DNA from: Arctopsyche grandis
Taxonomy: Eukaryota > Arthropoda > Insecta > Trichoptera > Hydropsychidae
DNA: 64,000 bases
Reading direction: 5' to 3'
Assembly (NCBI RefSeq): GCF_051622035.1
Contig: NC_135360.1
Location: 34,303,206-34,367,205, forward strand
Positions 1,740 through 64,000 of the stretch are shown here, in pieces. The notes under the pieces are model-generated. The model saw nothing but the letters and a program-made list of their open reading frames with translations, searched no databases and was not told the DNA's origin. The first letter of the stretch is position 1; each line of letters begins with the position of its first letter. The position numbers and the translations under genes were made by a program.

Positions 1740-2509
1740 TCATTCTCTATGCACCAACACATACACGGCTAGACAAATCAAAACTATATACTGAAACAAA
1801 AAATAAAATACGTTAGCGAACGGAGCTAAAAGAGAATATAAGATTTCAGTGTGAAAAATTGATACCTTTAGTTTCGGATACTCGTTCATAAAGATGGTCA
1901 CCATCCCGACATACGGTAAGAAACCTCGCGCTCGTCCAACTACGTCCTTAGCGTGAAGCCACAGTTGACCCTGAGCATACAATCCTCGATCGTCGACGCT
2001 ATTATTATCACCTTTGGTTAGAAATTTGACGGTGCCGTTGCTGCAATCAGTTGCAAAGAACAATGTTAGGATGGTGGAGGACTGGCGTTCGCATCCAATG
2101 TATGGGTGACTTACTTTTCGTGCAACTTTAGGACTCTGTGTACGATAGGAATGTCTCTGCCTTCCACTTTGAAGACGACGATTTCGCCGACTCGCACCGG
2201 CTCTTCGGGGTAGTTGGTGAGGAAGAGCAGGTCGCCTCGGTGGAAGGCGGGCTCCATGCTGCCGGAGAGGACGACGACTATGGGACTCTCGCTGCCGGTG
2301 ACCACCATCAAGCCCTTCCATATCATCAGAGCGGACGACACGATCATGCCGACGCTCAGTATTTGGTATATGAGCTGAAAGTAAAAGTGAGCTGCTGTAG
2401 TAGAGTTGGAGCGAAATCGAGCGAAATCGAGCGATCGTACGGTGGGAGAATGGGGCCCGACCTGTCGCTTGTTCATGCGGCGCAAGCCGTCCAACGCGGC
2501 CTCCAGCAT
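1740..2509 (-). CDS. SEC11: Signal peptidase complex catalytic subunit SEC11
   Basis: Four exons on the minus strand (2462-2509, 2115-2374, 1866-2040, 1740-1790) join in frame to 177 codons plus stop; human SEC11A has 179 residues. It cleaves signal peptides from secretory proteins in the ER membrane. A membrane segment is at about residues 18-35 and the catalytic Ser is in SGSMEP (about residue 55). RGDLLFL and the PIVHR box with the second catalytic residue follow, then TKGDNNAVDDR-like and GRARGF boxes and a C-terminal hydrophobic helix ending VLVHRE. The start is chosen because [16 protein letters not shown] matches the family N-terminus. The ORF reading through intron 1 and upstream is not the protein. 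A LINE remnant begins within about 200 bp of the start codon. Confidence 0.95.
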
Positions 2510-2659
2510 CTTGGCGGCTGCGATTCTTCGCGGTTTGGAAGAAGTGATCAGTCACCGTTCACCGTTCACCGGTCAGCAATCGCAGTCACAAATCGACGAT
2601 GTCAGTTTCGGACACCGGTGGCCACACGTCACCGCTAGCCGTTCACGGTGGACCAGTGT

Positions 2660-7887: not shown

Positions 7888-8306
7888 ATGTACATGAAAT
7901 ATAATATTTTCGTTTATATTTGTATATTTTTTGTCTCAGTGTACTGCTTCTTTTTTATATTTTATTCTGTATGTGTGCCAATTTAAATAAAATCAAATTC
8001 AATTAAACTGCAGTAGGTAATTGTTAAGCGTTTATTACCACTTTTTCGAAAATTCTGTCGAGACGAATCGATTCAGCGGAGACACAGGACAGTGTAATTG
8101 AAATCGACGAAGCTTTCGACACAACGAAAATCCGAAATCGGCATATTTCGCTCCGGCGTAGAGTGCACGTACGCGTACACGTAATTGAGGCAGAGCACGC
8201 ATATTCGTCGACAGGTTTGACCCTTGACGTGTGGGTCTGCCCGTGAGTTGAGTCAGCGCCGGTTCGGGTGATCGTTGAAAGTCACACTTGTTTGCGGCAA
8301 TCCAAG
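7888..8306 (+). promoter_or_regulatory. BAP31 upstream region and likely 5' UTR
   Basis: No other gene seen. From about 8040 the sequence becomes CG-richer than the AT-rich flank, as expected for a housekeeping promoter and leader. No TATA box stands out. The transcription start cannot be fixed. Confidence 0.35.
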
Positions 8307-9005
8307 ATGAGTCTCCAATGGGCGCTGATCGCGGGCTTCCTCTACTTCGAGATAGCCATAGTGCTGCTGCTGGTGCTGCCGGTCGCCTCCCCTCGCCGCT
8401 GGCAACGACTCTTCAACTCGAGACTTCTGCAGTTCGTGAAGGCGCAGGCCGGCGTGTACTTCGGCGTGCTGCTCGCCATCCTGGGTCTGTTCCTGCTGGA
8501 CGCCATCAGGGAGATGCGCAAGTACTCGGGAGCGCCCGAGCACGGAGACCCGCACCACCAGCACTTGGACGCCGAGATGCAGGGCAACATGAGGCTGTTC
8601 CGGGCTCAGCGCAACTTCTACATCTCGGGGTTCGCGCTCTTCCTCTCCCTGGTGATTCGCCGTCTCGTCATCCTCATCTCGGCTCAAGCCACTCTGCTGG
8701 CCCAGTCCGAGGCTAATCTGCGCCAGGCCCAGAGCGCCACCACGGCTGCCAGGAGTCTGCTGGCCCAGAAAGGATCCGGGGAGGCCGCGCAAAACGACAC
8801 CAACGAAGCTCACGACAAGGAAATCACCGCCCTCAAAGCCAAGGTCGCCTCTCTGGAGACCGACCTCGAAAAGGAACGCAAAGACAAATCGGCCGTCAAG
8901 TCGCAGGCCGAGGGTCTCAACAAGGAGTACGACAGGCTGACCGAAGAGTACAGTCAGCTGCAGAAGAAGATCACCATCGGTTCGACAAGCAGAAAAGACG
9001 AATAA
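8307..9005 (+). CDS. BCAP31: B-cell receptor-associated protein 31 homolog
   Basis: A single uninterrupted frame of 232 residues; family members are about 230-250. BAP31 is an ER membrane protein that escorts other membrane proteins and takes part in ER quality control and apoptosis signalling. MSLQWALIAGFLYFEIA is the family N-terminus, which picks ATG 8307 over the upstream in-frame extension. Membrane segments are near residues 7-28, 45-64 and 104-124, followed by a cytosolic coiled coil (about 165-225). The C-terminus RKDE resembles the dibasic ER-retrieval signal. The codons are GC-rich compared with neighbouring genes, which suggests high expression. Lack of introns contrasts with every other host gene here. 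Confidence 0.95.
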   Translation: MSLQWALIAGFLYFEIAIVLLLVLPVASPRRWQRLFNSRLLQFVKAQAGVYFGVLLAILGLFLLDAIREMRKYSGAPEHGDPHHQHLDAEMQGNMRLFRAQRNFYISGFALFLSLVIRRLVILISAQATLLAQSEANLRQAQSATTAARSLLAQKGSGEAAQNDTNEAHDKEITALKAKVASLETDLEKERKDKSAVKSQAEGLNKEYDRLTEEYSQLQKKITIGSTSRKDE

Positions 9006-22156: not shown

Positions 22157-22470
22157 TATCAATTAATATCCACAGAGACATTTATGGTCAAATTTTTAAA
22201 TTTGCAGCATTTTAAGTTATTCAGTAAATATATATCAATTAACATCTACATATACATTTATGGTCAAATTTGTAAATTTGCAGCATTTTATACAATTCAG
22301 TGAAATGAGTAAGGTTGACATTTTGTTGGAACCGTTTCAATGAAAATCAGATAAATTGGCCAACTTTGATAGGAAACGATCGACCTGGAGTCAGAAATCC
22401 AAGGTCTGGCCAGCAGAAACCAGTTGGATTTGAACCCATGATCACTCTGTTCAAAGCATTATATTTTTAT
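22157..22470 (-). mobile_element. tRNA-derived SINE, copy 1 (diverged)
   Basis: Reverse complement carries GGGTTCAAATCC (tRNA B-box-like, near 22428-22440) and CTGGTT-TGCTGG, followed by a body matching the SINE at 38895-39392 (TCCAGGTCGATCGTTTC, GGCCAATTTATCTGAT). A block of about 75 bp ending GTAAATTTGCAGCATTTTA is tandemly duplicated at 22157-22225 and 22232-22303. Confidence 0.55.
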
Positions 22471-22620
22471 TTTATTTTATTATACATCATCAATTAATCA
22501 AGCACACTCGTCTAACAGATTGCTCCAAAGCGACGAGTGTGCTAAAAGATTAAGAAAGAACAAAAGGAAAAAAGTACATGAAATTTTACAATTAAAAATA
22601 CTTAAATATGGCCATCTACA

Positions 22621-23845
22621 CTTAAAACAGGTAGTGGATTTTTATACATCGCGAAAAACTTCCGTATACGCCTGTTTTCTAGACTTATCCAAGGCCTTCG
22701 ATCGAGTGGATCATGATCTACTTTGGTCCAAACTGTTAAAAAGGGGAGCTCCAAGTCAAATCGTGAGGTTTTTAGCATCCTGGCACCGGAATCAGTTCAG
22801 CCATGTACGCTGGGGGAATTCATACTCTGATCCCGCTTCTTTGAAGTGCGGGGTTAGACAGGGTGGGTCAATGTCTCCTGGCTTATTCAACCTTTACATG
22901 GATGAACTTTCACATCGCCTTCGACAGACTGGAGTTGGTTGCCACATAGGAGGAATATGCAGTAACCACATCAGCTATGCGGATGACATGGTGATCTTGG
23001 CGCCTTCTCCGTCAGCTCTGAATCGCCTCCTGGAAGTTTGCTCGAGTTATGCTGCAGAACATAATATGCGGTATAATACGAGTAAATCCATGGTATTGAT
23101 TTTCCGATACGGTCGAGGTCCTCATTTCGTCCCCAACATTATTTTAGATGAGCGTAATCTTGAAACTGTTAGGGAAGTCAAGTATCTGGGACACTTGCTG
23201 ACGGAGGATCTATCTGATGACCGTGACATCGAAAGACAAAGAAGAGCCATTTGTGTAAGGGCAAATATGCTGGCTAGACGATTTTTCCACTCCAGTGTAG
23301 AGGTTAAGAGACAATCATTTATGTCCTTTTGTACTAGCCTCTATACTGGTGAATTATGGACCAGATACAAGCGGGAGACGATGAGGAAGATAAAGGTACA
23401 ATACAACAACTGTTACCGTGCTCTTTTCGGGTTACCTAGGAGCTGTAGCGCGTCGCAAATGTTTGTAGAAGGGCATGTGCCCCATTTTGAAGCCATTCTC
23501 AGGATGAGAGCGGCCTCTCTACGTCTTCGTATATTTTTATCGCCTAATTGTCTTCTTGCTGCTGCATCTTCTCATTTGCATTCTTCATTGTATGTTCGAT
23601 GGATGGAACTGCTACACCGACCGCCTTGAATAGACATAAAATTATTATTATTTATTATTATTATTTATTATCAGTAATATTTATATATTTACTTATGTAT
23701 TTATTTATTTATTTTTTGTTTACTATTTTTCAATACTTTTTTTTTTATTATCTATATATTATTTATATGGGCGTTGGGGATTGCACTATTCTCCTCATCG
23801 TCTGGAATAAAAGGTATTATTATTATTATTATTATTATTAAATAA
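22621..23845 (+). mobile_element. 5'-truncated LINE with reverse transcriptase
   Basis: The frame to 23629 encodes reverse transcriptase from the palm onward: motif A in CFLDLSKAFDRVDHDLLW, motif B GVRQGGSMSPGLF, motif C YADDMV, then thumb and a C-terminal domain, with stop at 23627-23629. The fingers and endonuclease are missing; similarity begins near LKQVVDFY (22621). The residues before that come from flanking repeat DNA. A 3' UTR ends in a TAT repeat at 23814-23840. The frame is open, so it is not very old. Clade not resolved. Confidence 0.8.
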
Positions 23846-26472: not shown

Positions 26473-28383
26473 ATGCGATGCAGACTTACAATAGATTCTA
26501 TTCAATCGCAAAGGTACTGAAATCTAAATACACAAATCTATCACAATTGGATAAATTCAAAATCAAGAAAGCCACCGTCGATTATAACGTAAATTAAAAA
26601 TATTTGCTCATTGATTTCGTTAATTTTTTATTTCTACTTTTATCCACTCTGAACCTGATTTACCTGGTCATTCAAAGATTTGCCGACCACCGCTCTAGAC
26701 TGATTATATTTGACATTATTAACTTGTACGGACATACGCCACACGGTTTATGTATTATACAATTGTATGTAACTTAATGTATACTACTGTTATTTGTAAT
26801 TTGGATAAATAAATTGACACATCACCAATTCACCAATCAATCAAATCTAAATCAGAAAGGGTTATCATCTAGCGAATTAAACAAATCGCTTTCTTTCACA
26901 TCCTCAAAATCAAGTTTATTGGTTGTCAATATACATATACGATGTAAAGTGTATATTTTATCGAATTTTAAAAAGGCATCAGCTTTGGAATCACGATTTT
27001 TCGATACATTTACATATGTATAATAGATGCATTTCGGCTTCAAGTACATATGTATTGAGATTTAAGTGCGTTTAATTATCAATTTAAATTATTTCAGGGT
27101 TACTGACGAAATTGAAGCTCTAGAAGCGATACTCATAGACGATGTTATCATTCACCGTAAGAATTCAATTCCGACTGTGATCGAAACAGTCGTTCATCCA
27201 TCCACAGGAGATGACACTGATCAACAATATGTCTGTGTCACTTTGGAAGTCTTGTTGACGTCAAATTATCCAGACACGAGTCCCAACGTGAAGCTGAGGA
27301 ATCCTCGAGGGTTGGACGACTCTGTCTTGGATACTATTAACGCACAAATTCAAGACAAATTATTAGACTGTTTGGGCCAACCTGTCGTTTTTGAATTGAT
27401 TGAGGTAAGTTGAGGTACGGCATTGACGTCCAATTGCGGCATTTTGTAAAATTTCATTTGAATTTACAGCTGATCCGTGAAAATTTAACCAACAGCAACC
27501 TTCCCAGTGGACAGTGTGTAATTTGTCTGTACAGTTTCCTCGCTGGAGACGCATTCACGAAGACTCAGTGCTATCATCACTTTCACAGTCACTGCTTATC
27601 TAGTCACTTGGTTGCCGGCGAGAGAAATTATATTGAAGAATTGGAAAAATTGCCTCTGTGGCAAAAACAACAAGCTCAACCGTACCAAGTATGTGTTTCA
27701 GCTATGAATTTTTTATATTATTCTAAGATGAATGTTTATTCAGATGTTTTGTTTATGTTAGCCGACTTGTCCCGTGTGCCGTGAACCTATCAATTGTGAT
27801 GCGACATCTTTGGGAGGTGCTCCACCGCCACGAGAGCTTTCCGAAGCTCGTAATTTTGAATTAACTAGCGAACTACGAGATCTCCAAGAACGTATGGCAA
27901 CATTATATCAGCACCAACAGAGCCGGGGCGGTATCATAGACCTTAAAGCCAACCGGTCGAAACTTTTACTACTCACCGGTGAAGAAGGAGCCGCATCTTC
28001 AGTTAGTATTAGTCACTTGAGAATTGAGTGTTGTTATGTCTGTGCAAATTGCTGTCGTTCAATTTGAAATGATTAGTATCGAATTTGGGTAGGTTTGATA
28101 TCGTATTATTCTGTTGTAGGCTGACGCGCTGTCGTCCAACAGTCCAGAAGAATTGGAAGAGGTGAACGGTGAGGTCCCACCATTAGAAAACGACGAGGGT
28201 CGAGGCTCGACTTCGTCCAGTCCTCAGAGTCAACGGGGAGCGTACAGAGGTCCATTCCGTGGATACAATCGCAACAGGGGCTTCGGTAATCGCAGAAATA
28301 ACAATCACAACAACAGCAGTAACAATCAAGGACGCGGACGCTCCGTGAACGGATCACAATTCTGCACATCTGCCACTAGATGA
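26473..28383 (+). CDS. RNF25: E3 ubiquitin ligase RNF25 (RWD plus RING)
   Basis: Firm exons: 27098-27404, 27470-27688, 27762-28001 and 28120-28383. The first firm exon needs two bases from upstream. 26473-26513 (ATG, 13 codons plus AG, donor GTACTG) fits in phase and gives a start reading MRCRLTIDSIQSQR; this exon is a guess. RNF25 is an E3 ligase working in ribosome-stalling and NF-kB pathways. The RWD domain (VTDEIEALEAIL ... YVCVTLEVLL ... LRNPRGL) is followed by a RING: CVIC, CYHHFHSHC, CPVC. Then come a coiled segment with RGGIIDL, an acidic Ser-rich stretch and an Arg/Gly/Asn-rich tail. Only about half of the long vertebrate tail is present. Confidence 0.88.
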
Positions 28384-28642: not shown

Positions 28643-30281
28643 CACTACCGTCCATATGTTTAAGACCAAAGTGTTTTTGGAGCATATTTTACACAATTTT
28701 GGACCAATTTAAGAAATATAAACTCAGTTATGTTCAAAAAATACGCATTTATTAAAATAAATAAAGATATTACAACAATTAATAAACATAAAATTATAAA
28801 AAAATAAAAACGTCAAACTGAACTTTCGTCAAAAAACCCACCCTTACTTTTAATCACTGCTGCACATAGTCTCGGCATTCTATTTATTAAATTTTGAAGT
28901 GTGATGTGAGGTATGGACTTCCAACTTTCCTGTAGATGATTCCAAAACTTATTTATGGATGTTGAGCGATGGATTCTGGTTCGTCTGTCCAATTCGTCCC
29001 ACAAAAGTTCTATTGGGTTTAAATCGGGGGATTGAGGAGGCCAGTTCATGATTTTTAAATTATTTTTTTCTTCTTCTTGTTGTAAGAAGTCCATGCATAG
29101 CTTTGATTTATGTTTTGGGTCATTATCTTGTTGGAATATAAAATCATGCCCACATAAGTTCCGGCCGCACGGCAAAACTTGTTCTTTTAAAATTTTCAAA
29201 TACCCTTCTTTTTTTAAAATTCCATTAATTTTGATTAAATTCCCAACTCCAGCTCTTGAGAAACATCCCCATATCATTATGGATCCACCACCATGCTTGA
29301 TTGTTGGCAGCACACAGTCTGGCATCATTTTTTCTTGGGGAGTGCGCCGGACGTAAACTCGTCTTTTCGAACCGAACAATTCAAACTTCGATTCATCGGA
29401 CCAAATCACTTTTGACCAATCTTCAATTGACCAATTACGATGCTGAAGAGCCCAAGCTAGTCTTTTCGCTTTATTATTTCTTCTTAATAATGGTTTTCTT
29501 ACTGCTATGCGCCCTCCCAGCTTCACTTCCATCAGCCGACGTTTAACCGTGGTGACCGATACTTTTTTGAAGGCTGTCTTTTCTATGTCAGAGGCGATTT
29601 TTGGTGCCGTTATCCTTCTATTTCGCTTGCTCAATAATATAATTTGTTGATCCAATGCTTGTGTTGTGATTCTGGGACGTCCTGATTTTGATAAATCCAT
29701 AATGTTGTTAGAATTTTGGAATTTTTTTATCGTCTGTTGTACTGCAGTCTTCGAAATATTCAGATTTTCGGCGATATATCGTTGGGTTTTTTGCTGTTTG
29801 TAAAGAGCAATAATGGCTCCTCGAGTTTCCATGGTGAGATTTTTATTTTTTCCCATATTTCTTCAAAAATTTTTGTCCTCTTTATGTATTATAAATTTTT
29901 CGCTAATACGACTTCAAAGTCTGACTGGTCAGATTAAACTGAACCAAATTCATTTAGGGTTTATTATTTTGAACTGTTTCGATGTCATATCAGCAGGATA
30001 AAATAACAAAAAAAGTTCGTAACATAAACTGCGTATAGTAGAGTTGTCGAATTGCAACATGTGTCGATTCGTCACGCGGTGTCTTTGAGCCCATTTTGAA
30101 CCCTTATATAAAAAAAACAACAAACCAATGGGATAATCCCTGCTTTTTTTTGCTCAAATTAAATCCAAGGGTGTAGGGAAACAAATGATACCCATTTCTT
30201 TGAACTATTTTACGCTAAATTATTTTAATGGACATTAGAAATCGAGTTATAGGTTTGGTCTTAAACATATGGACGGTAGTG
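28643..30281 (-). mobile_element. Full-length Tc1/mariner transposon, DD38E type
   Basis: 1639 bp with a 28-bp perfect terminal inverted repeat beginning CACTACCGTCCATATG, flanked by TA on both sides (28641-28642 and 30282-30283). It carries one uninterrupted transposase gene. Perfect termini and an open frame indicate recent activity. Confidence 0.93.
28813..29856 (-). CDS. Tc1-family transposase (DD38E)
   Basis: 347 residues, start to stop unbroken. It performs cut-and-paste transposition into TA sites. The N-terminal paired-like HTH region (ETRGAIIALYKQQKTQRYIA, then ISKTAVQQTIKKF) is followed by a GRPR-like hook (GRPRITT). The catalytic Asp is in IWSDESKF, the second Asp in QQDNDPKH and the Glu in NPIELLWDEL. 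Thirty-eight residues separate the second Asp and the Glu, because of a QEEEKNN-type insertion. Classical Tc1 has 34; DD38E spacing is known for the Intruder branch. All catalytic residues are present. Confidence 0.93.
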   Translation of the reverse strand: MGKNKNLTMETRGAIIALYKQQKTQRYIAENLNISKTAVQQTIKKFQNSNNIMDLSKSGRPRITTQALDQQIILLSKRNRRITAPKIASDIEKTAFKKVSVTTVKRRLMEVKLGGRIAVRKPLLRRNNKAKRLAWALQHRNWSIEDWSKVIWSDESKFELFGSKRRVYVRRTPQEKMMPDCVLPTIKHGGGSIMIWGCFSRAGVGNLIKINGILKKEGYLKILKEQVLPCGRNLCGHDFIFQQDNDPKHKSKLCMDFLQQEEEKNNLKIMNWPPQSPDLNPIELLWDELDRRTRIHRSTSINKFWNHLQESWKSIPHITLQNLINRMPRLCAAVIKSKGGFFDESSV

Positions 30282-35147: not shown

Positions 35148-38100
35148 ATATATCATCATCATCATCATCATTTACAGCCATTCGCCATCCACTGCTGGAT
35201 GAAGGCCTCTCCAACACGCTTCCACTCGTCTCTGTTTTGCGCAACACTCATCCATCTCATTCCGCACATTTTCCTAATTTCGTTCACCCATCTTCCTTGC
35301 GGTCTTCCTTTTACTCTTTTGCCTTCTCTCGGGTACCATTCAAGCACTTCTTTTGTCCACCTTTCGTCCATCCTCCTAGCTACGTGACCCGCCCATTGCC
35401 ATTTCAATCTCTTCACTCTATCCACTATGTCCACTACCCTTGTCATATTTCTCACCCACGTGTTCCGCTTCCTGTCTTTCCTCGTTATGCCAAGCATACA
35501 GCGTTCCATACTTCTTTGAGTGCATTGGATTTTATTTTGCATCTTGGCGTTCAGTGTCCAAGTTTCACATCCATACGTCATCACTGGCAAAACGCATTGA
35601 TCAAAGATCCTTTTCTTCAGGCAGAGTGGCATTTTTGATTTAAAAACAGCATTCATCCGTCCAAATGCACTCCACCCCAATTTCATACGTCTCTTTATCT
35701 CTTCATTTTTACTACCAGACATGTCAATTATTTGACCTAAATATAAATAATTATTTACTACTTCTACTGGTTTATCATCTAAGGGGATGCTATCAGGCAT
35801 GCAATAACTATTGAACATTAGTTTAGTCTTATCTACGTTAATTTTTAATCCTACTTTTCTACTTTCCCTGTCCAGCTGTGTTAGTCTGATAAGTAGGTCA
35901 GCTGAATCACGAGCTACTAAAACTATATCGTCTGCGAACCGAAGGTGACTCAAAAAGCGACCATTGATGCTTACTCCGGCTGTATCCCAATCCAATTTCC
36001 TGAAAACTCCCTCAAGCACCGCATTGAATAACTTGGGCGAGATTGTATCTCCTTGTCTTACTCCTTTTCCTATGCTAAATCTATCTGTACCTGAAAAAAT
36101 TTTAACTGAAGCTGTGGCATTCTTATATATTGTAGCTAACAGTCCCACATAGGGTTCCGGCACTCCCTGTGTTTTTAGAGCGTTAAGTACTGCATTATGA
36201 CTAACTGTATCGAAGGCTTTCTCATAATCGACGAAACCTAGGCACAGTGGCCGTTGATATTCGTTGGCGCGCTCGATTAGTTCGCCAACTACTTGGAGGT
36301 GGTCCATTGTGCTGAAATTTGCCCTAAACCCTGCCTGCTCTATAGGTTGGTTCTCGTCGAGGATATTCTTCAGCCTTTCTGTAATAACCTTCGTGAAGAG
36401 CTTGTAGACCGCTGAAAGTAGACTAATGGGTCGGTAGTTCTTGATATCGCTTTTGTCGCCTTTTTTGTGTATTAAAATGATAGTTGCGTTATTCCATCCT
36501 TCTGGTATAGCTTGGTTCTGGATGCATTTGCTGAAAAGCCTAGCTAAGATATTAATTAGGGGGGGGCCGCCACATTTTAGTAAGTCGATGGGAATATTAT
36601 CTTCCCCTGGGGTTTTACCATTCTTTGCAGTTTTTAGCGCGGCCTCTACTTCGCTAGGCAATACTGCAGGAACCCTTTGGCCGTGTGTCGAATCCAGAGT
36701 GGGGAATTGGCCGTTGTCGTTCTCGTATAGTTTTGCATAGAACGTGTAAACTCTGTCTATGATTTCTTCTCTATTCCTAATTATTACTCCGCTCTCTGAT
36801 CTGATTGCGATCATTTGGTTTTTGCCTAAGAAAAGATCCTGTTTGCACTTTTTCAGGCTACGGTTATTCTTAATGGTATTTTCTATTAGCTTGCTGTTAA
36901 AATCCCTGACATCCCTGACTATTCTCTTCTTAATTTCCTTATTTACTAGATTGTATTCTTGCTTATTATTATCCCTATCTAAATTCCTTTTATGCTTAAT
37001 TAGGTTTTTTGTTTCCGCTGAAATTTTGCTTAATTTAATCTGTTTCCTGAATCCACCTAATTTCTTACCTGTTGAGGTTAGAACCGAACTAATTACAGTG
37101 TTCAATTCCTCGATGTCTGCTTCTGGGTTTAATTTCCCGTATCGATTTCCAAGTTCGAGTTCGAATTCCTTTTTCCTAGACCTTAGTTGAGCGAAATCTG
37201 GAGAGTTACTGCATCCTTTTATTAATTTCCTACGTTCGCAATTTATATTAATGGCCATCTTGGCACGGACTAATCTGTGATCGCTGCCTATATCTACTTT
37301 ACTTAAAACACTAACGTCTTTAACGGAGTGCAGGGCATTTGTTAGGATGAAATCGATCTCGTTTCTGTCTCCTTTAGGACTCTCCCAAGTCCACTTATTG
37401 TTGGTGTTTTTCCTGAAAAATGAATTAGTGATGAAGAGCCTGTTGTGTTCTGCGAATTCTATGAGGCGATCGCCTCTGTCGTTTCTTTGGCCGGTACCAA
37501 AATTGCCTACTGCTCTTTCTGTGTTTGCCTTTTGTCCTATTTTTGCGTTAAAGTCGCCCATGATTATTTTAAAGTGGTGGCGGCTATTATCGTATGCGCC
37601 CTGTAGTTTTTCGTAGAAGTCTTCTATTTCCTCGTCTGGGTGGCTAGATGTGGGGGCGTACACTTGGAAGATTTGACAAGTGTACCTGCTCGAGATTCTT
37701 AATACTACATAGCATATACGTTCCGATATGTCGTTTATTTCTATAATATTTCTTTCTATTCTCTTATTGATAAGAAACCCTACTCCTCCTATTCTACCAT
37801 TTGGTAGCCCTCTCCAGTAGAGACAGTTACCACTTTTTAGGATTATTTGGTTTTCCTGTTTTCGTCTTACTTCGCTAAGTCCTACTAAATCCCATTTGAT
37901 ACTTTCTAGTTCATTCTCTAATGCAAGCACACTTCCTTCACTCGATAACGTTCTTACATTGTACGTGGCTAAATACAGGTTTCTATTAGCTAAGCTATCA
38001 TCCATCGTCACTCTTACCTTGTTGGAGGTTTGGATATTATTTTTCTCGCATTTATCCAAGATGTGTTGAGAAAAAGGCGGTACTTGAGAGAGATTTCCAT

Positions 38101-38160
38101 TCAAGGAGTGAGTTCTTACCGCCATAAACTCTTCTCTGTGGTCAGCTTTGACATATAGTC
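35148..38160 (-). mobile_element. Full-length RTE-type LINE
   Basis: About 3 kb on the minus strand, with one 985-residue open frame and a TGA-repeat 3' tail (35154-35170 on the plus strand read as ATC repeats) that also supplies the stop codon. The exact 5' end is uncertain, close after 38125. 5'-truncated relatives are at 19334 and, more distantly, 32700. No interruption is seen, so it may be recent. Confidence 0.85.
35168..38125 (-). CDS. Endonuclease-reverse transcriptase of an RTE-type LINE
   Basis: 985 residues, uninterrupted. An apurinic-like endonuclease occupies about residues 50-280, with LATYNVRTL, GLSEVRR, IMGDFNAKIG and SDHRLV carrying the catalytic Asn, Glu, Asp and His. A linker leads to reverse transcriptase at about 480-790: IHKKGDKSDIKNYRPISLLS, motif A VDYEKAFDTV, motif B GVRQGDTISP, motif C LRFADDIVLV. 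The C-terminal tail has GHVARRMDERWTKEVLEWYP and GRPQGRW. It nicks the target and copies its RNA at the break. All key residues are visible. The clade is inferred from the domain set, single ORF and tail. Plus-strand frames over this region are shadows. Confidence 0.9.
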   Translation of the reverse strand: MAVRTHSLNGNLSQVPPFSQHILDKCEKNNIQTSNKVRVTMDDSLANRNLYLATYNVRTLSSEGSVLALENELESIKWDLVGLSEVRRKQENQIILKSGNCLYWRGLPNGRIGGVGFLINKRIERNIIEINDISERICYVVLRISSRYTCQIFQVYAPTSSHPDEEIEDFYEKLQGAYDNSRHHFKIIMGDFNAKIGQKANTERAVGNFGTGQRNDRGDRLIEFAEHNRLFITNSFFRKNTNNKWTWESPKGDRNEIDFILTNALHSVKDVSVLSKVDIGSDHRLVRAKMAININCERRKLIKGCSNSPDFAQLRSRKKEFELELGNRYGKLNPEADIEELNTVISSVLTSTGKKLGGFRKQIKLSKISAETKNLIKHKRNLDRDNNKQEYNLVNKEIKKRIVRDVRDFNSKLIENTIKNNRSLKKCKQDLFLGKNQMIAIRSESGVIIRNREEIIDRVYTFYAKLYENDNGQFPTLDSTHGQRVPAVLPSEVEAALKTAKNGKTPGEDNIPIDLLKCGGPPLINILARLFSKCIQNQAIPEGWNNATIILIHKKGDKSDIKNYRPISLLSAVYKLFTKVITERLKNILDENQPIEQAGFRANFSTMDHLQVVGELIERANEYQRPLCLGFVDYEKAFDTVSHNAVLNALKTQGVPEPYVGLLATIYKNATASVKIFSGTDRFSIGKGVRQGDTISPKLFNAVLEGVFRKLDWDTAGVSINGRFLSHLRFADDIVLVARDSADLLIRLTQLDRESRKVGLKINVDKTKLMFNSYCMPDSIPLDDKPVEVVNNYLYLGQIIDMSGSKNEEIKRRMKLGWSAFGRMNAVFKSKMPLCLKKRIFDQCVLPVMTYGCETWTLNAKMQNKIQCTQRSMERCMLGITRKDRKRNTWVRNMTRVVDIVDRVKRLKWQWAGHVARRMDERWTKEVLEWYPREGKRVKGRPQGRWVNEIRKMCGMRWMSVAQNRDEWKRVGEAFIQQWMANGCK

Positions 38161-50000: not shown

Positions 50001-53000
50001 AGCATGAATCAATAGCCACGCGCCAAAAACGACTAGAAATACAAGAAATATAGGGTGTATAGCTTTGAAAACCACATAGTTATTACGAAAGACGTAAAAA
50101 TTGGGACACTTGCATACCCCACTTCGGTGAGGGAGGGTTAATCCGACTTTAACTAGCTTTTATAGAAAAAGTTTTAAAATAAAAATCGACGATCTATGTA
50201 TGCATTTAGCAGCACATTTATATACATACTTACTCAATAATTTTTTTTCCAAGTTAAAATGAATAATAATCATAATAATAACACAAATTGTACACGTTTT
50301 TCAATAGAGAGTTTACAATGTCGCAATCTTTACATTGTTTCGTAAACATATTTTTTTTTGCCAGTGAAAATTATACTTATTAGTGTGTCAAATTGGAATT
50401 GTATGTAATAACAATGGGGACGCTAAATTGTTTGAATAACTCTATACAAGTGTAGACGACAGTTTCAACTGATGATAAACATCTGTGTTTGATCCTACTA
50501 TGACGAATTTCGTACATGTATACATATGTACATATGTACATACATACATACCTCCTTGCGTTATAAATATGTAGTATAATCATATGAAAAATTAACGTTT
50601 ACGAAGCCATTAAACGTGCATACATATGTATGTATTTATGCACGTATATAGTTATTAAAAAAAGAAATGAAACAATTTGATAATCTAACAGCCAACCAGC
50701 GGATGTTCATTATCAGTCGTTCCGATTAATCAACGCTACACCAGTGCGTTACATTGAAATACATATGTATGCATTCAAGATAAGCAAAGTTTAAGATAGG
50801 GTTTTAAATGGTGATTTAAAACTGCAAAAAGCAGATAACGTAAAAATTACTAAGTGTGCAAAATTGCAATAAACGGAGACCAACAACAGCTTTGTATGTT
50901 TGTACGTACATATATACATACAAACATATAATCGAGTTGCTTTATCACATTTTCTTTGCATTACTCATTTGTATGTTCTATTTCTAGATGCCATGCAGCG
51001 ACAGCTCATAATATAATACTGTATCTTAAAAAGGTGTTTCGTGATTAAACAACATCATTGTAGTGTTGATTTTGCAATGCGTCTGCATTTATGTACATAT
51101 AAAGAAAATATCCATTTGCAGTAGGAATTTGAAATTTGTGATTTTATATACATACATACATACATATATACCTACATATGTATGTATATTTAATATATAA
51201 ATTATTATTCATAGTGAATTTTTCAATCTCTGTTCATATACATACATATTTATAAATTCATTTCACAAGTGTTTCATTTTAGAGTTATACAATATTTAAT
51301 TGTTATTAAATAAGGACAATTGAAAATGATTACAGGTATTAACAGCAAACATTGGAACACTTTTGGACTTGTATGGAGTGGAAAGAGGACTCGACCATTA
51401 CAGATCAACGTTGGAACTTGACTTCGAACACTTTAAATATTATTTGCACAAAGAAGTGTTTTCACCGTTGCCGCACACTTTCAGCGCGACAAATTTGAGA
51501 AATTTTGAAGAAAAGATTGAAGAAGTATACATACACTCATAAATAATAGGTACATAATTAATTAATTATAAATTAAAATATCACTCATTAATATATAATT
51601 CGACTTACTTATAAAGGTATGTTGGCTGATATGTCGCAGAAATTATTCCACTAGACAACGACCTATCTTTTCGGAAACTTCAGTATATCAACTGTTTAGA
51701 ATATTTTGCATGCTTGGCGATTTGACACCCGATAAAGATAACCCTAGAAATTTTCAGGTACCACTTGAACTAATGATATGAAATCAAATTGTATGTATGT
51801 ATGTATGTATGTATTTACCGAATGTCGAAATCGTTTTGAAAATGCGTTCTTAAAACCATTTCAGGTTATGCTATCGGCATCGGAGGCTGGATTAGTCGCT
51901 GAACAACTAGTCAATTTATTAGGACTCCCGTGGGATCATTCAGACTGGGAGAATTTCAGCGCGACGATCGGTGCTTTTAGATTAAACACTTTTTTTGCCA
52001 TTTTAGAGAGTAAGTGCAGAACCATAGGTAATGTTGAAGAAGCGTCCATCGCCGAAGCTGTCGAAGAATTGTATCAGACGTTTATCAAAGATGTTATCAA
52101 AAAGGTACGAAATCCACCATTGCCTTGCTTTGCAAATATTGGACCATAAACACATTTCATATTATCATTTGAATATATTTTACAGGGTTTTCTAATGAAA
52201 AAAGGTTATTTGCTTCCGACGCTTCGGGAATACTGGTTCGTTCTGCAGCCGTGCGAAATCTCATATTATAAAACACCCTCTGAACGATTTCTATGCGGTA
52301 CAATCACAATAAATCCAAATTGTTCTTTAGAGAGCATTCAAGGATCGGCCAAGTTGCAGAAATTTCTTTTGACCACATCCGAAAGGGTGTTCGAGCTCGC
52401 CACTCAAGATCACAAGTACCCATAAATGAGCTAAATATTTTTTTTATATTTAAATATTGGCTAAATTAATTATTTACTAAAATTGAATGTCTCCGTTGAT
52501 TTGTAGGAGTCGTCTTCAGTGGACGTCAGCTTTACAGCTAGCCATCGAGCATTCCAACGGCAGACATGGATACCATAGAAGTCAAAAGGCAAAACGTAGA
52601 GAGGAGAACAAGCGTAGGGAGATGCAGGCTGAAGAGGTGAATAAGACGAAAAAGCTATTGCAGGAGGAGATGAAAGCACGCATAGCTGCCGAAATTCAGG
52701 CTCACCAATTGGCCGAGATGGCACAAGAAGACAGTAAACGTTTACAAGAAATGAAAGACACACAAGCCAAATTGGAAAGGTTGCTTGCCGAGGAAACTCA
52801 GGCTAAGCAAGACGAGGAAATAGTACGAGCATTACAAGCAAGGTCAGTTTGAATAATACTTACAAATCAGGACCGCGCCTAGGGGTTCGTCCGCCTGTGT
52901 GCAAACTTAAATCGGCCTCTCTTTAGTTTTATCAGCATTTGTATAAATCATATTAATAAAAAAAAAATTAAGTGCATGCCAGTATAAGCATAGTGTTGAA

Positions 53001-55346: not shown

Positions 55347-57364
55347 TTAAACTTGAATTATACTGACCGAGCTGTCTTTGACTTTCTTCTTTTTAGATGC
55401 CAACTTTTTCAGCTGTAATAGAAATAGAAAACAATAGATTTTGGAAAATATTAGCTAATTATCTATATCTGAAAATTATATTTAATTTAAAATTTTAACA
55501 AAAAAATATAGTATATAAGTATACTCGTTTCTTTTCGGCCCGAGCAGCCATAATTTTCCTCCAAGCTCGTTGAATCACCCTGGCAGCGTGCTCCATCAAG
55601 AATGTCGTCATTTTGTGTAACACTTCCTTTTGATATTCCTCTTCCTTTTGAGCCATCAATGGTATGTAGGTTTCTTCTTGCATATCAAACTTTACCTGCA
55701 TTTAAAAACATTTTAATGATTTGTATTAATATAAAATTGTATAACATATTATAATATTTTGATTTACTTGGATAACAATTACCTGTAATTCGGCAAGTTG
55801 TTGTTTTTCTCGTTCATAGCACTCGCTCAAATGATCCAGAGTGGCTTGTTTCGATCCGACATCTCTATCATACTGATCCAACCAATCCTGTAAATCATTT
55901 TCTACATTGCGTCTGATTTTTTTCAATTCATTTTCCATATCCAAGTTTTCTCGAAGCAAACATTCATAGTGTTCGGCAGATTCAGCATCTTTCTCTTTTA
56001 GGATACTCAATTTGTCTTCATGACACTCCTCCGTTAACTTCATTTCATATTCAGTTTCTAATCTATTATATTAAGACGAAGAGAATGAATAATACTGATA
56101 AATAGTCATAGTAAAATGTGAATATAAATTTTCTTACATTATCCTACTTATTTCAGCTTTGCAATTATTTTTCAACAAATCTAACTGCTCTTGTTGTCTT
56201 TTAATAACACCTTCTTTCTCATTAAACTCTTTTTCAAAGTTTTCTTTGATATTATTTAGTTTTTTTGTTGCATCTGAAACATTATAAATGAGAAGAGGAC
56301 TTTCAATTTAATTAACAAAACCAAATAATGTATAAAATATTTTACCGGCGATTTTCAATTTCACTGCTTTGTTCGTTTTATACAAATTCCTCATCAACAC
56401 GTCTCTTTTCAACTTTTCAGCAGCAGTAAGCATTAACTTTTCTCGCATTTTTGTTTTTAATTTAACCAAGGCATTCAAGTATGGGATAACATTGGAAGAG
56501 TTAGAATTTTCCTAAAAAATGAAAAAAAATGTTGAATTACAGTATCACTAACACTAACAATTACAATACAATTTAAGTACCTTTCTGTGGTTTTCTCGTA
56601 GCTGAAAAAGAAAATTAATATGGCATTAAAGTTATTAATACATGTACATATGTATATCAATATAAATTTGTACATCACATTATGTATTTACATATTTATA
56701 GAAAATTTCACTAACATTTTCAATTGTTTTCTTAATTATCGGTTTCAGTTTCGAATAGCCGATAATCATCCATATTATATGTGATAGTACAGGGATAACT
56801 TTAGAACCGGGATCAATGAAAATCTAAAAATAAATTGGGATATTAGTTTAAAATAAAGACAATGCGTATACCTACATACATACATTCAATCATTCACAGA
56901 TTTATAATATATAACAAACACACTTGATGAATCTGATCTTTTGTAATAGTTTCATAATCGCCTTGATCCATATCCAACCCCGAGACACTTTGCTCAAAAC
57001 GAAATCGTTCAATTATTTGAAAATCATCCTCAGATACAGTATCCCGAAGGATGTTTATACTATTTTGATTAGCCTGCGTGAGAAATATTACAATTTCAGT
57101 TTTAAATATAGTCTCTCTCAATATCGATGTTATTCTTTCGTTTTGTATTTGAATTTCCAAATCGACGGCAGAATATTCTAAGTTAATCAAACAGAAGAGT
57201 TATGTATAGTACATATGCTATTAATACATATCGATGAGACAAATATTGTACAAATTTCACTCACCTTTGATGTCTCTTTCGTTATTGTTGAAATTGAATG
57301 AAATTCTTGAAATATTTGATCCGGTATCTGTGCTTAATGTTGAGACATCGCTCATGGAATCCAT
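55347..57364 (-). CDS. IQCD: Dynein regulatory complex subunit 10 (IQ domain protein)
   Basis: Nine exons on the minus strand: 57265-57364, 56924-57177, 56716-56823, 56581-56601, 56346-56511, 56138-56273, 55783-56062, 55525-55695 and 55347-55412. They give 433 residues (human IQCD/DRC10 449). DRC10 belongs to the nexin-dynein regulatory complex that controls motility of cilia and sperm flagella. The protein is largely coiled coil. RENLDMENELKKIRRNVEND followed by WLDQYDRDVGSKQ matches the family's conserved segment. An IQ motif AARVIQRAWRKIMAARAEKK lies near the end, then a Lys-rich tail. The 21-bp fourth exon (LRENHRK) is a microexon. It diverges from DRC2 with starts 383 bp apart. Confidence 0.87.
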
Positions 57365-57747
57365 TTTATTTGTTAGCTGTTATTAATTTTGGTAAATATC
57401 GGAGTACATAAAATGAATTACATATTGTTGTAATCAACATGAATATCTTTTATTTGTAACCAAGCAACCGATAACTGCAGTTTGGAGGACATTGTTTCTT
57501 GTTTAATCGATATTGTTTGAATTTTTATCCATGCATATGGAACTATGTAAGTGTATCGAAAGAGCTAAATTATTTACTCAGTAATCGACAAACAATCCTC
57601 AATTCTATCGAAATAAATGTAAGTTGTTAAATTAATATTCGATTTATTTTTAATCACAAAATATATGTTCAAACCAAAAGGTTTGGTTAGGTAGTGTATA
57701 TATGTATGTATGTATGTAATACTAAACTAATTACTGATTTGTAAAAG
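57365..57747. promoter_or_regulatory. Bidirectional promoter of DRC10 and DRC2
   Basis: 383 bp between two divergent start codons. It carries an X-box-like site at 57456-57468 and no other recognised feature, and must hold both promoters and 5' UTRs. Confidence 0.7.
57456..57468. promoter_or_regulatory. RFX X-box-like site
   Basis: GTAACC-A-AGCAAC fits the GTNRCC(N0-3)RGYAAC consensus for RFX factors, the main regulators of ciliary genes. It lies 92 bp before the DRC10 start and 280 bp before the DRC2 start. Binding is inferred. Confidence 0.6.
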
Positions 57748-60146
57748 ATGGCACCTAAAAAGAAAGGCAAAGGAAACAAACTAGCCAAAATGTCCGATGA
57801 AGAAAGAATGCGATACCTGCAGCATCTGGCCGATATCGAAGAAGAAGCTCGACGTCGAAAAGAAGAGCTCATTGCTCGTTATATGAAAGTATTGATTTTA
57901 TGAAAATAATACATTAATAAAATAAAATCATAATAAAATTAGCACCATGATTGCTTTCATTTAGAACAAATTGAATAAAGAAGAAGTTTTTGCAAGAATA
58001 AACTTGGCAAAAATAAATCTAAACTGGCGATTAATACTCAGACGGCTGAAAATTAAAGACATGGAAAAGGAGGTGCAAATAATGATAACTACTTTCACTT
58101 GGATGATGGATTCAAAGAACGCCGTAATATCGAGACTAATGACATCTTTAGAGGAAGCTGAAGATCAATACTCGAGAATGCTGCAAGCGCATATGGAAAT
58201 GATTAGCCATTTTTTAGGTACAAAAATCTTTTTTGTAGAATTTCAAAATTATATGTATATACACATACATATGTTAAAGTGCATTAAATTATAATATATA
58301 GGTATAAGCGGAGAACGTTTGAAATTTTTCCATGACAATTTTGAACAACAGAAAGACGCATTAATCGAGCAATCGGATAATGAACTTCATTTGATAGAGC
58401 AGAGTCAGAAAGAAGCTGAATATTCCTTGCAACTTGTCATTCATCAACAGGAAGAAAAAATGAAAGACCATATGGGAAAATCGAGCTTGGTCAAAGCTCA
58501 CTTGGCGAATTCGACTAAAATTATGGTAAAGGTGTATTAAGAGAATAAATAAATAAAATTATTTGATATTTTTTAAAATCAAATTAAAAAAACCAGTTAG
58601 AGGAAGATATGAATAATATGGTGCTGCCAAAACAATTGCAACTAGAATCAATTTGGAACGACATGAAATCTGTTTTCACAGACTTTGTGAACTATCACGA
58701 TCCCAAGATTCAACAATACCAGTTGCTCAGGCAAAAGGATGCACTCTTTAGAAAGGAGATCAATCAGCATATGGAACAATTTTTAGTTGTCACTGTAAGT
58801 GTTGATTTTTCAGTATCGTCTGTTGCGTTTCATGCCGTGTAAACAAACATGTTAATTGTTGCAGGATATGATAACTCATTATCAATATCAATTGGAAAAT
58901 TTGACTGAAAATTTTCAGTTTACAACGAGAAATACAAGGGAAAGACGAGATAATATCAATATGTTGTACACAAAAATTAAATTGAATATCACAGAGCAGC
59001 AAGAAAGTGATAAAAATCAACTAGAGATATTGAGTGTTGAAAGTTACAATTCCATTAAGGTACGTTAATTCTCGTATGTTTGCATGTATCATTCATAAAT
59101 TAATGTTTGAAGTAAAGTTTTACAATAGATGAAATAAATATAAATCAAACAACATAAAAAAAATTCATTTAATACAAACAAAGTATAATATAAATCCATT
59201 AGAATGAATTCAGTTTGAATATTTTAATGCACAACTTAATACACATGTATGTAATAATTTTAGAAGTTGGAAGATATGTTTTGCAAAGTACAAAAAATAG
59301 TACAGATGGATTTAAACTGCAGAAAATATGAAATGGAAGGCGAAAAGGTGGTTCCTTGGAATAAATTAGAGCTATCTAAGCATAACGTACAGAATGGTTT
59401 GTCGGAAGATATTATGGTAATGATTTTCATACTAATTTACTAATTTCATACTAGGCTACTTGTCGGATTATAAGCATTTCGTCTTTACGTGCTACGAATA
59501 AAGTAAATGCGTAGATATTATAAAATAGACCCCTCCTGACCAACACATATATTAAACTGAGACAACATTATGAGAGGGTTTGAACGCTTCTAGTGAATTT
59601 AAAATAAACAGTGAAAATAAAAAGTCACTCAACTACACATGTGTTCTTTTGAAGTACTTACCATATACATATTTAATTGTATTTTAAAATGGAAATAAGT
59701 TATTATTTTAGGGAGATATTGAAGCTTTGGACATGCTAGAAAATTTCTGGTTCAAAATAAACAGAGTAACCGTTCATGCGGCAACATTGAAAGCCGAATG
59801 CGACAGCTTAAAACAAGAAAATAAACACTTGAAAAACTGTCTGAAGAACTTTTTGATGGAAGCTGCATTGGGAGACGTAAAAGGATCGAGCACCGAAGTC
59901 GCTGGCAGACCAGCGAGTATGAGAATGTATAGGATTACGCAGCACGCATCAGGAACATGTGAACCGATAGTGTCAGTACATATTATTATACAAAATCTCA
60001 ATAACTACATACATTCAATAATATCATCTACAAAAGATGTACTTTTGCCTAAATTAATTTTAAATTATTACGGTGTTATGGAGATGGATGTTTATCTACA
60101 TATGTACGTTTTAATTACAATCAGCAACAAAAAATCATATTTTTGA
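57748..60146 (+). CDS. CCDC65: Dynein regulatory complex subunit 2
   Basis: Seven exons: 57748-57888, 57965-58217, 58302-58525, 58597-58794, 58865-59059, 59264-59416 and 59712-60146. They give up to 532 residues (human CCDC65/DRC2 484). DRC2 pairs with DRC1 as the core coiled coil of the nexin-dynein regulatory complex on axonemal doublets. The Lys-rich start MAPKKKGKGNKLAKMSDEE matches the family. INLNWRLILRRLKIKDMEKE is the conserved first helix, followed by long coiled coils, CRKYEMEGEKVVPW and LENFWFKINRV. The last exon runs past the conserved end (GTCEPIVSVHIII) into a low-complexity tail, so an unseen splice or a lineage-specific extension is possible. Confidence 0.87.
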
Positions 60147-60595
60147 TTTACCAAAGCGGAGTTTGTCGAACTCCATTTGAATATGACAATGATTTTTGTT
60201 GGCTCGCTGTTTGTTTAAAGAATAAATATAAATTTTCACGAATGGGAGTGCTTGATAATTTTCAAAACATGGTTTTGATTTTTTTTTATTATATGTATGT
60301 ACATATAAAGACATATATGTACATTTAATTTGTATATACATATATAAAATTTACCAAACTTTGGTTTTTTACAAGAGAGAGCGCTACGTTTTTGAAACAT
60401 TTATGCGCTCCCGTTCATTTTGATTCCTGAATGAGTATTAACGAAAAAGCAATTATTTGCAGAAGGCGTCCCGTCACATGTGTAGAAGGTAGCATCTGTA
60501 ACGCTATACAACATGAAAAGAGGCTTAACAAATGGAAAAATGAAAATCGTCAAGCCCAAAAAATTGTCGTGCGACGTTATTGTTGGTAAAATAAA
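60147..60595. other. Intergenic after DRC2
   Basis: AT-rich. The short frame at 60513-60601 runs into the LTR-like insert and is not a gene. Nothing else recognised. Confidence 0.3.
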
Positions 60596-61487: not shown

Positions 61488-62584
61488 ATGGCAGCTCACG
61501 TAGGCACAAGAGACAGATTACTATCGCTCGTCGATGACATCGAACTCATTGCCAAGTAAATACTTTCACAATCAGATGTATCTTTAGTTTGTAGAATCTA
61601 ACCTCAAACTGCACACAAATACTGAATAACTAACTTTTTATATTCATATTTTAGGGAAATAATCGAAAATAGTATCACTCCAAAACCACAAAAGATGTCG
61701 GCATCGGAACACGCACAGATCACTGAATTGCTTCTAGCCAAAGATGCCGAGTTGAAAAAGACGCTCGAATTAGCCGAAGAGCAAGCAAAGATCCACGAGA
61801 AAATGAATAGATTAAAAATGGAAGTTGATAATCAGGTAATCGCTCATATGTAGATTTAAAAAACTTTTCGTCGTCCGATGAATGCTAACGAGGAAATATT
61901 CCAGGATAACGATATATGCCAACTCCAAAAGCAACTGAAAGACGCCGAGCAAATACTAGCGACGTCTCTGTATCAAGCGAGACAAAAACTAGCATCGATA
62001 TTTAAATCTAGAGAAAGACCGGTGCCATCCGAAGAATTGATCAAATTTGCTCACAGGTTCTACACAACTTAATTTTATCAAAACTTTTCTAATGTGAAAA
62101 AACATATTCTAAAAAAAAAAAAACGATGCGCATTTTAGGATAAGTGCTTCAAATGCGATATGTGCTCCACTCTCATGGCAGCCAGGTGATCCACGTAGAC
62201 CTTATCCTACCGATATAGAGATGCGATTGGGACTTTTAGGTCGTCTATGTGAATTGCCGCTCAACGGACACGCCCCATCACTGAGCGATATTCATCGAAT
62301 TACAACTGGAGGCTAGTGTTTATCCTCGAGCAAATAAATTTACATACATACATATGTATTAATATATTCAATGCTCAAATTTGATTGTTTTCACAGAAGT
62401 TCCCGCTTCGGCTGCAAATCAATTCGCGTGGCATCCATCCGGTGAGCTCCATTTGGCTGTCGGAGGAGCTTCCGTTCCGCTGGAAGGTTCTGCAGGTGCC
62501 CGAGGTCCCAAAGACGCTCCACAAGAAGACGTAGAAGTCATGTCGACCGATTCTAGTTCAAGTTCTAGTAGTGATTCTCAATAA
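61488..62584 (+). CDS. MED4: Mediator complex subunit 4
   Basis: Five exons: 61488-61555, 61655-61835, 61905-62056, 62139-62311 and 62397-62584, total 253 residues (human 270). MED4 is part of the Mediator middle module, which couples activators to RNA polymerase [42 protein letters not shown] and the block [20 protein letters not shown] followed by [10 protein letters not shown] are the family signatures. The acidic Ser-rich end [19 protein letters not shown] matches the human C-terminus. Intron 4 appears to start with GC (GGAG/GCTAGT at 62312); no GT donor joins the two exons in frame, and reading through stops at once (TAG). Confidence 0.93.
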
Positions 62585-63586: not shown

Positions 63587-63601
63587 GTTGCCCTTAGCGA
63601 C
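63587..63601. promoter_or_regulatory. RFX X-box-like site upstream of DNALI1
   Basis: GTTGCC-CTT-AGCGAC: the left half matches GTNRCC, and the right half matches RGYAAC except G for the first A. It ends 56 bp before the start codon, the usual position for X-boxes of ciliary genes. Confidence 0.5.
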
Positions 63602-63657: not shown

Positions 63658-63965
63658 ATGGCTGAAAGAATTATCCCATCCGAAGACACGCTAGTCAAAT
63701 ATGAAAATCCAGTATTAGTGACGACGCATCCTGAAAAAAGACCTGTGAGTATCGTATACAAAAACTATTCACAAAACCCGGGATACAAGAGGTTTATCAG
63801 GTTGATTTGAAAACGTAACAGGTGAGGCAGCCGATATCTCCGACTCCTGGCACGTCCTGTGTCACTCAGCTAACAGCCGAGATCAGAAAAGAGACTGAAG
63901 AGATCCTCAATGCAATATTACCGCCGAGAGAGTGGGAAGAGGAAGGGCAAATATGGACGCAACAG
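63658..63965 (+). CDS. DNALI1: Axonemal dynein light intermediate polypeptide 1, 5' part (partial)
   Basis: Two exons, 63658-63744 and 63822-63965, in frame; the gene continues beyond the window. DNALI1 (p28) is a light chain of single-headed inner-arm dyneins in motile cilia and flagella. MAERIIPSEDTLVKYENPVL followed by VTTHPEKRP, and later EEILNAILPPREWEEEGQIW and TQQ, match the human protein closely. The region between is shorter than in human. The next donor GTATCA follows CAACAG at 63965. Confidence 0.9.
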
Positions 63966-64000
63966 GTATCAAAATTAAATATGATACTGAAATAAATGTA

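Follow-up and report, generated by a model that had tools for sequence, protein, structure and literature searches.

In the genome of Arctopsyche grandis (Trichoptera, Hydropsychidae), two subunits of the nexin-dynein regulatory complex (N-DRC) of the axoneme are encoded head to head. We analysed a stretch of 64,000 nucleotides (RefSeq assembly GCF_051622035.1, contig NC_135360.1, forward-strand positions 34,303,206 to 34,367,205), hereafter the window, in which position 1 is the first nucleotide. Splice modelling and homology searches placed a homologue of DRC10/IQCD on the minus strand and a homologue of DRC2/CCDC65 on the plus strand, and confirmed that these two N-DRC genes are divergent neighbours. 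The short gap between their start codons contains a candidate RFX X-box. We put at about 50% the probability that this gap is an RFX-driven bidirectional promoter, shared by DRC10 and DRC2 and active wherever motile cilia are built.

DRC10 and DRC2 as divergent neighbours

The DRC10 model (57364 to 55347, minus strand), built from splice sites and supported by phmmer matches, comprises 9 coding exons (57364-57265, 57177-56924, 56823-56716, 56601-56581, 56511-56346, 56273-56138, 56062-55783, 55695-55525 and 55412-55347) that encode 433 amino acids, with GT-AG borders at all 8 introns. The DRC2 model (57748 to 60146, plus strand), for which Pfam was used in addition, has 7 coding exons (57748-57888, 57965-58217, 58302-58525, 58597-58794, 58865-59059, 59264-59416 and 59712-60146) and GT-AG borders at all 6 introns; it encodes 532 amino acids if the frame is taken to 60146, with the 3' end of its last exon uncertain. 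Both models are open and divergent, and the gap between their start codons, a putative bidirectional promoter, measures 383 bp (57365-57747; GC content 26%), so that the orientation and the intergenic distance of the original prediction both hold. Since in-frame stops sit immediately upstream of the ATG in each gene, both ATGs appear sound, barring an intron in the 5' leader. The distance is one between ATGs, while the criterion for a divergent pair (opposite strands, less than 1 kb apart) concerns transcription starts, and a 5' leader intron is possible.

Using phmmer against 177,635 distinct PDB sequences (E ≤ 10), we found four matches to the minus-strand model, of which three were DRC10 chains (2.8e-9, 1e-8 and 2e-6) and the last was the relative DRC9, far behind at 0.0087. 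The best alignment covered residues 44-420 of the 433. For a coiled-coil protein, this degree of family specificity, as judged from sequence comparison, is convincing. DRC9 was rejected as the identity of this gene on the same E values, in agreement with the earlier assignment to DRC10/IQCD. Pfam reported no IQ domain in the whole protein (E ≤ 0.1) or in its C-terminal part (E ≤ 1), where the IQ-like family IQCJ-SCHIP1 alone appeared (E 0.028; 15.1 bits, under the cut-off of 28). The segment VIQRAWRKIMAARAEKKR resembles the consensus of an IQ motif. The missing Pfam match weakens the predicted IQ motif but leaves the assignment to DRC10 untouched.

The first 476 residues of the plus-strand model matched six PDB sequences (7.3e-40 to 2.2e-6), five of them named DRC2 and the sixth named 'Coiled-coil protein, putative'. 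DRC1 was not among the matches at E ≤ 10 and was rejected as an alternative identity. The model also contains the Pfam domain NYD-SP28 (PF14772; 3.5e-23, 82 bits, cut-off 22.1), while the C-terminal domain NYD-SP28_assoc (PF14775) scored 19.4 bits, below its cut-off of 27. These results bear out the proposed identity as DRC2/CCDC65. The proposed end at 60146, which followed the open frame only, fared less well: because the PDB matches end near residue 444, the stretch up to 60146 is unsupported. An alternative last exon (60463-60589, plus strand), proposed from its open frame and splice sites and reading ...RRPVTCVEGS..., could be joined in phase to a phase-2 donor at either 59927 or 59972. 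Its reading appears similar to insect DRC2 C-termini; PDB and Pfam searches of this exon gave no support. The last exon of DRC2 may possibly lie here, beyond the end given earlier.

How often such a pair should arise was estimated by arithmetic from 11 N-DRC subunits (PMC6367277), ~14,500 genes (PMC2375033) and the 31.6% of D. melanogaster genes that belong to divergent pairs (PMC2670823). About 0.001 divergent N-DRC pairs are expected per fly-like genome, for a pair chosen after the fact, and about 0.2 divergent pairs of any two axonemal genes, assuming a guessed 150 axonemal genes. Chance is an unlikely source of the specific DRC10-DRC2 combination, though not of some axonemal pair of this general kind. 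As in the divergently paired genes described in Drosophila, whose starts are mostly 0-400 bp apart, two protein-coding genes stand head to head, here with no TATAAA in the gap; unlike those genes, which are mostly housekeeping, DRC10 and DRC2 encode subunits of one cilium-specific complex, and their spacing is counted between start codons instead of transcription starts (PMC2670823). Relative to gene density, divergent pairs are described as conserved, yet as less stable in insects than in vertebrates (PMC2670823). Among the open-licence PubMed Central matches listed, titles and abstract openings held no description of the DRC10-DRC2 pairing. Searches for DRC2 relatives gave 5 pattern matches in viral contigs and 36 in genome contigs, none confirmed; these are viral and prokaryote contigs, so the absence says little. 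The locus adds a new case to a common type of gene arrangement and offers a regulatory clue that can be tested.

Sequence motifs in the gap

The candidate X-box, GTAACC-A-AGCAAC (57456-57468, plus strand), is separated from the ATG of DRC10 by 91 bp and from that of DRC2 by 279 bp. It fully matches three overlapping X-box consensuses (PMC3414849, PMC2375033), for which neither strand of the window has another full match. In simulated 383-bp sequences (40,000 per null), a full match arose in 0.10-0.43% when a single consensus was considered and in 0.34-0.53% when a match to any one of the three was counted, and among real 383-bp tiles of the window, 1 of 167 contained one. These tight forms overlap heavily and are not independent, and the site, like the CGATA words described below, was examined after looking at the gap. 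When compared with nine published forms, the site matched four (RYNNYY.., RTNRCC.., GYNRCC.. and GTNRCC..), including the three tightest, each of which has one site in the window. By a looser first score it tied among seven sites in the 64 kb. Its half-site RGYAAC is complete; X-boxes of fd3F targets often deviate from the published forms and are strong in this one half-site (PMC3414849).

A Fox-type motif, RYMAAYA (here ACAAATA; 57451-57457, minus strand), overlaps the X-box by 2 bases, and a second Fox motif is found at 57433. The gap also holds five CGATA/TATCG words (57397-57610; starts at 57397, 57469, 57508, 57554 and 57606) against a window mean of 0.74; at least five are reached in 0.8% of 383-bp stretches, for a motif picked post hoc. 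Matches to core elements were one TATAWAWR (57697), one palindromic ATCGAT, one minus-strand initiator (57416) and two TCAGT words, whereas TATAAA, the full DNA replication-related element (TATCGATA) and CCAAT were not found in the 383 bp. A bacterial promoter scan of the gap, not applicable to a eukaryote, found 1 promoter versus 3.3 expected.

Two known systems offer a comparison. Like the chordotonal motile-cilium genes controlled by Rfx and Fd3F in Drosophila, the pair has a candidate X-box that fits a quoted consensus and adjoins a Fox motif upstream of axonemal genes; unlike them, it has a single candidate between two genes, with neither ATG within 50 bp of it (PMC3414849). In the mouse, the same gene as DRC2, Ccdc65, is under an RFX factor, as predicted here; that regulation was described in testis, and Iqcd does not appear in the main text of the mouse study (PMC4745085).

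Genes around the pair

Downstream of DRC2, the Mediator subunit gene MED4 (61488-62584, plus strand; Pfam Med4 2.8e-19 on a hand-joined part, start and stop codons verified) precedes the start of DNALI1/p28, an axonemal inner-arm dynein light chain whose first exons (63658-64000, plus strand) are truncated by the window end. DNALI1 begins 3.5 kb beyond the DRC2 end given earlier, so that the starts of three axonemal genes, DRC10, DRC2 and DNALI1, fall within 6.3 kb. Its best phmmer match reached 8.4e-13; of 11 matches at E ≤ 1, the top six were DNALI1/p28-type chains, whereas the remaining five, none better than 0.46, were an unrelated cytokine. Pfam Ax_dynein_light scored 26.3 bits (8.7e-6), just below its cut-off of 26.4.

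A second X-box candidate, GTTGCC-CTT-AGCGAC (63587-63601), precedes the ATG of DNALI1 by 56 bp. It fully matches the restricted form GYTRYYN1-3RRHRAC, which has 9 sites in the window, as well as five other, looser forms, and has one mismatch to GTNRCCN0-3RGYAAC. Four Fox motifs lie within 50 bp of it, and 1.7% of window positions have at least four. The Drosophila gene for DNALI1 (CG6971) is an fd3F target (PMC3414849).

On the other side of the pair, a gene with a PH domain (Pfam; 52150-52422, plus strand) points toward the 3' end of DRC10. Its extent, guessed from open frames, is ~51.8-54 kb, and we take it to be SWAP70/DEF6-like. The remainder of the window was surveyed through selected open reading frames by Pfam. 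These included a signal peptidase-like (Sec11-type) frame (2114-2551, minus strand), Bap31 (8247-9002, plus strand), an RWD-domain frame (27066-27410, plus strand) and a carboxylesterase gene, together with a long open Tc-type transposase frame of 349 amino acids (28816-29862, minus strand) and reverse-transcriptase frames of 996 (35171-38158, minus strand) and 395 amino acids (22442-23626, plus strand). Across the whole window, Rfam at gathering threshold and a transfer RNA scan each returned 0 matches.

Regulation of the pair and competing explanations

We propose that the 383-bp gap could serve as a compact bidirectional promoter for DRC10 and DRC2. Its main cilium-specific input would be the single RFX X-box, possibly aided by the adjoining Fox site, and both genes would be turned on in cells making motile cilia. 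By analogy with Drosophila, the likely common site of expression would be chordotonal neurons, with spermatids also possible. We infer RFX binding, the two-way action of the X-box and the site of expression from known systems. One X-box could switch on both genes because the motility genes of fly chordotonal neurons are under paired Rfx and Fd3F sites (PMC3414849, PMC6367277) and because mouse Ccdc65 is an RFX2 target by chromatin immunoprecipitation, in a study that also lists Dnali1 among the genes regulated by RFX2 (PMC4745085). Of the divergent pairs of D. melanogaster, 84.8% are significantly correlated in expression, positively or negatively (PMC2670823). The X-box lends some support to the shared promoter of the original prediction, although the same site fails five of the nine published forms, among which are RYYNYYN1-3RRNRAC, a degenerate form, and all but one of the five restricted forms given in PMC2375033.

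That failure is one of several points that weigh against an RFX-driven shared promoter. Divergent pairs are ordinary, given their frequency in D. melanogaster, and the majority have starts 0-400 bp apart (PMC2670823). Resampled 64-kb sequences average 0.2-0.6 full X-box matches, so a full match per window is not rare; only its placement is. An X-box upstream of one gene, by a degenerate consensus, is not predictive of Rfx dependence (PMC2375033), and sites in fd3F targets are usually at most 50 bp from the transcription or translation start (PMC3414849), nearer than the gap X-box is to either ATG. Fox motifs are common: one or more can be found within 50 bp of 48% of positions, and two or more within 50 bp of 17%. 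Both the X-box and the gene-pair evidence come from one genome only.

An alternative that we regard as quite credible, if somewhat less probable, is that the two genes are chance neighbours in a gene-dense stretch, separately regulated, with the X-box, if used, serving DRC10 alone. Five genes lie within ~12 kb here, 31.6% of D. melanogaster genes belong to divergent pairs (PMC2670823), close or divergent pairs in Drosophila tend toward more frequent rearrangement (PMC3129673), and the imperfect X-box is closer to DRC10 than to DRC2. Against chance adjacency stand the ~0.001 divergent N-DRC pairs expected per genome and the position of the X-box, since nowhere in the window outside the gap are the three consensuses fully matched.

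A more extended scheme, which we consider unlikely, is that selection has kept DRC10, DRC2 and DNALI1 together as an axonemal neighbourhood of ~9 kb, in which the DRC pair would share one two-way X-box and DNALI1 would have another, and that DRC2 was freed to lose testis expression where the pair is split. DRC10 and DRC2 are, we presume, unlinked in flies. Drosophila DRC2 (CG30259) is given as expressed in chordotonal neurons only and apparently missing from sperm; knocking it down is described as affecting chordotonal neurons only, with one of five males infertile in the accompanying table, and DRC10 (CG13168) is found in neurons and testis (PMC6367277). If the extended scheme were true, pair-splitting would account for this chordotonal-only DRC2.

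Given the same Drosophila data, the "testis-restricted" expression first suggested for the pair lacks support, and its "stoichiometric" co-expression is a weak claim, as the dimers are DRC1/2 and DRC9/10 and the pair balances no direct dimer (PMC10504270). Hence a testis-restricted bidirectional promoter that supplies stoichiometric N-DRC subunits to sperm is very improbable, even though N-DRC subunits function in sperm tails, RFX2 directly targets mouse Ccdc65 in spermiogenesis (PMC4745085) and the DRC9/10 dimer does contact the DRC1/2 dimer (PMC10504270).

For an RFX-driven promoter shared by DRC10 and DRC2, conservation carries the consequences. Without conservation of the pair and of its X-box, the locus is a chance instance of a common layout. 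Should both prove conserved, they would provide a compact two-way promoter with which to dissect the coordination of N-DRC genes in insects, and a route to asking why Drosophila lost DRC2 from sperm.

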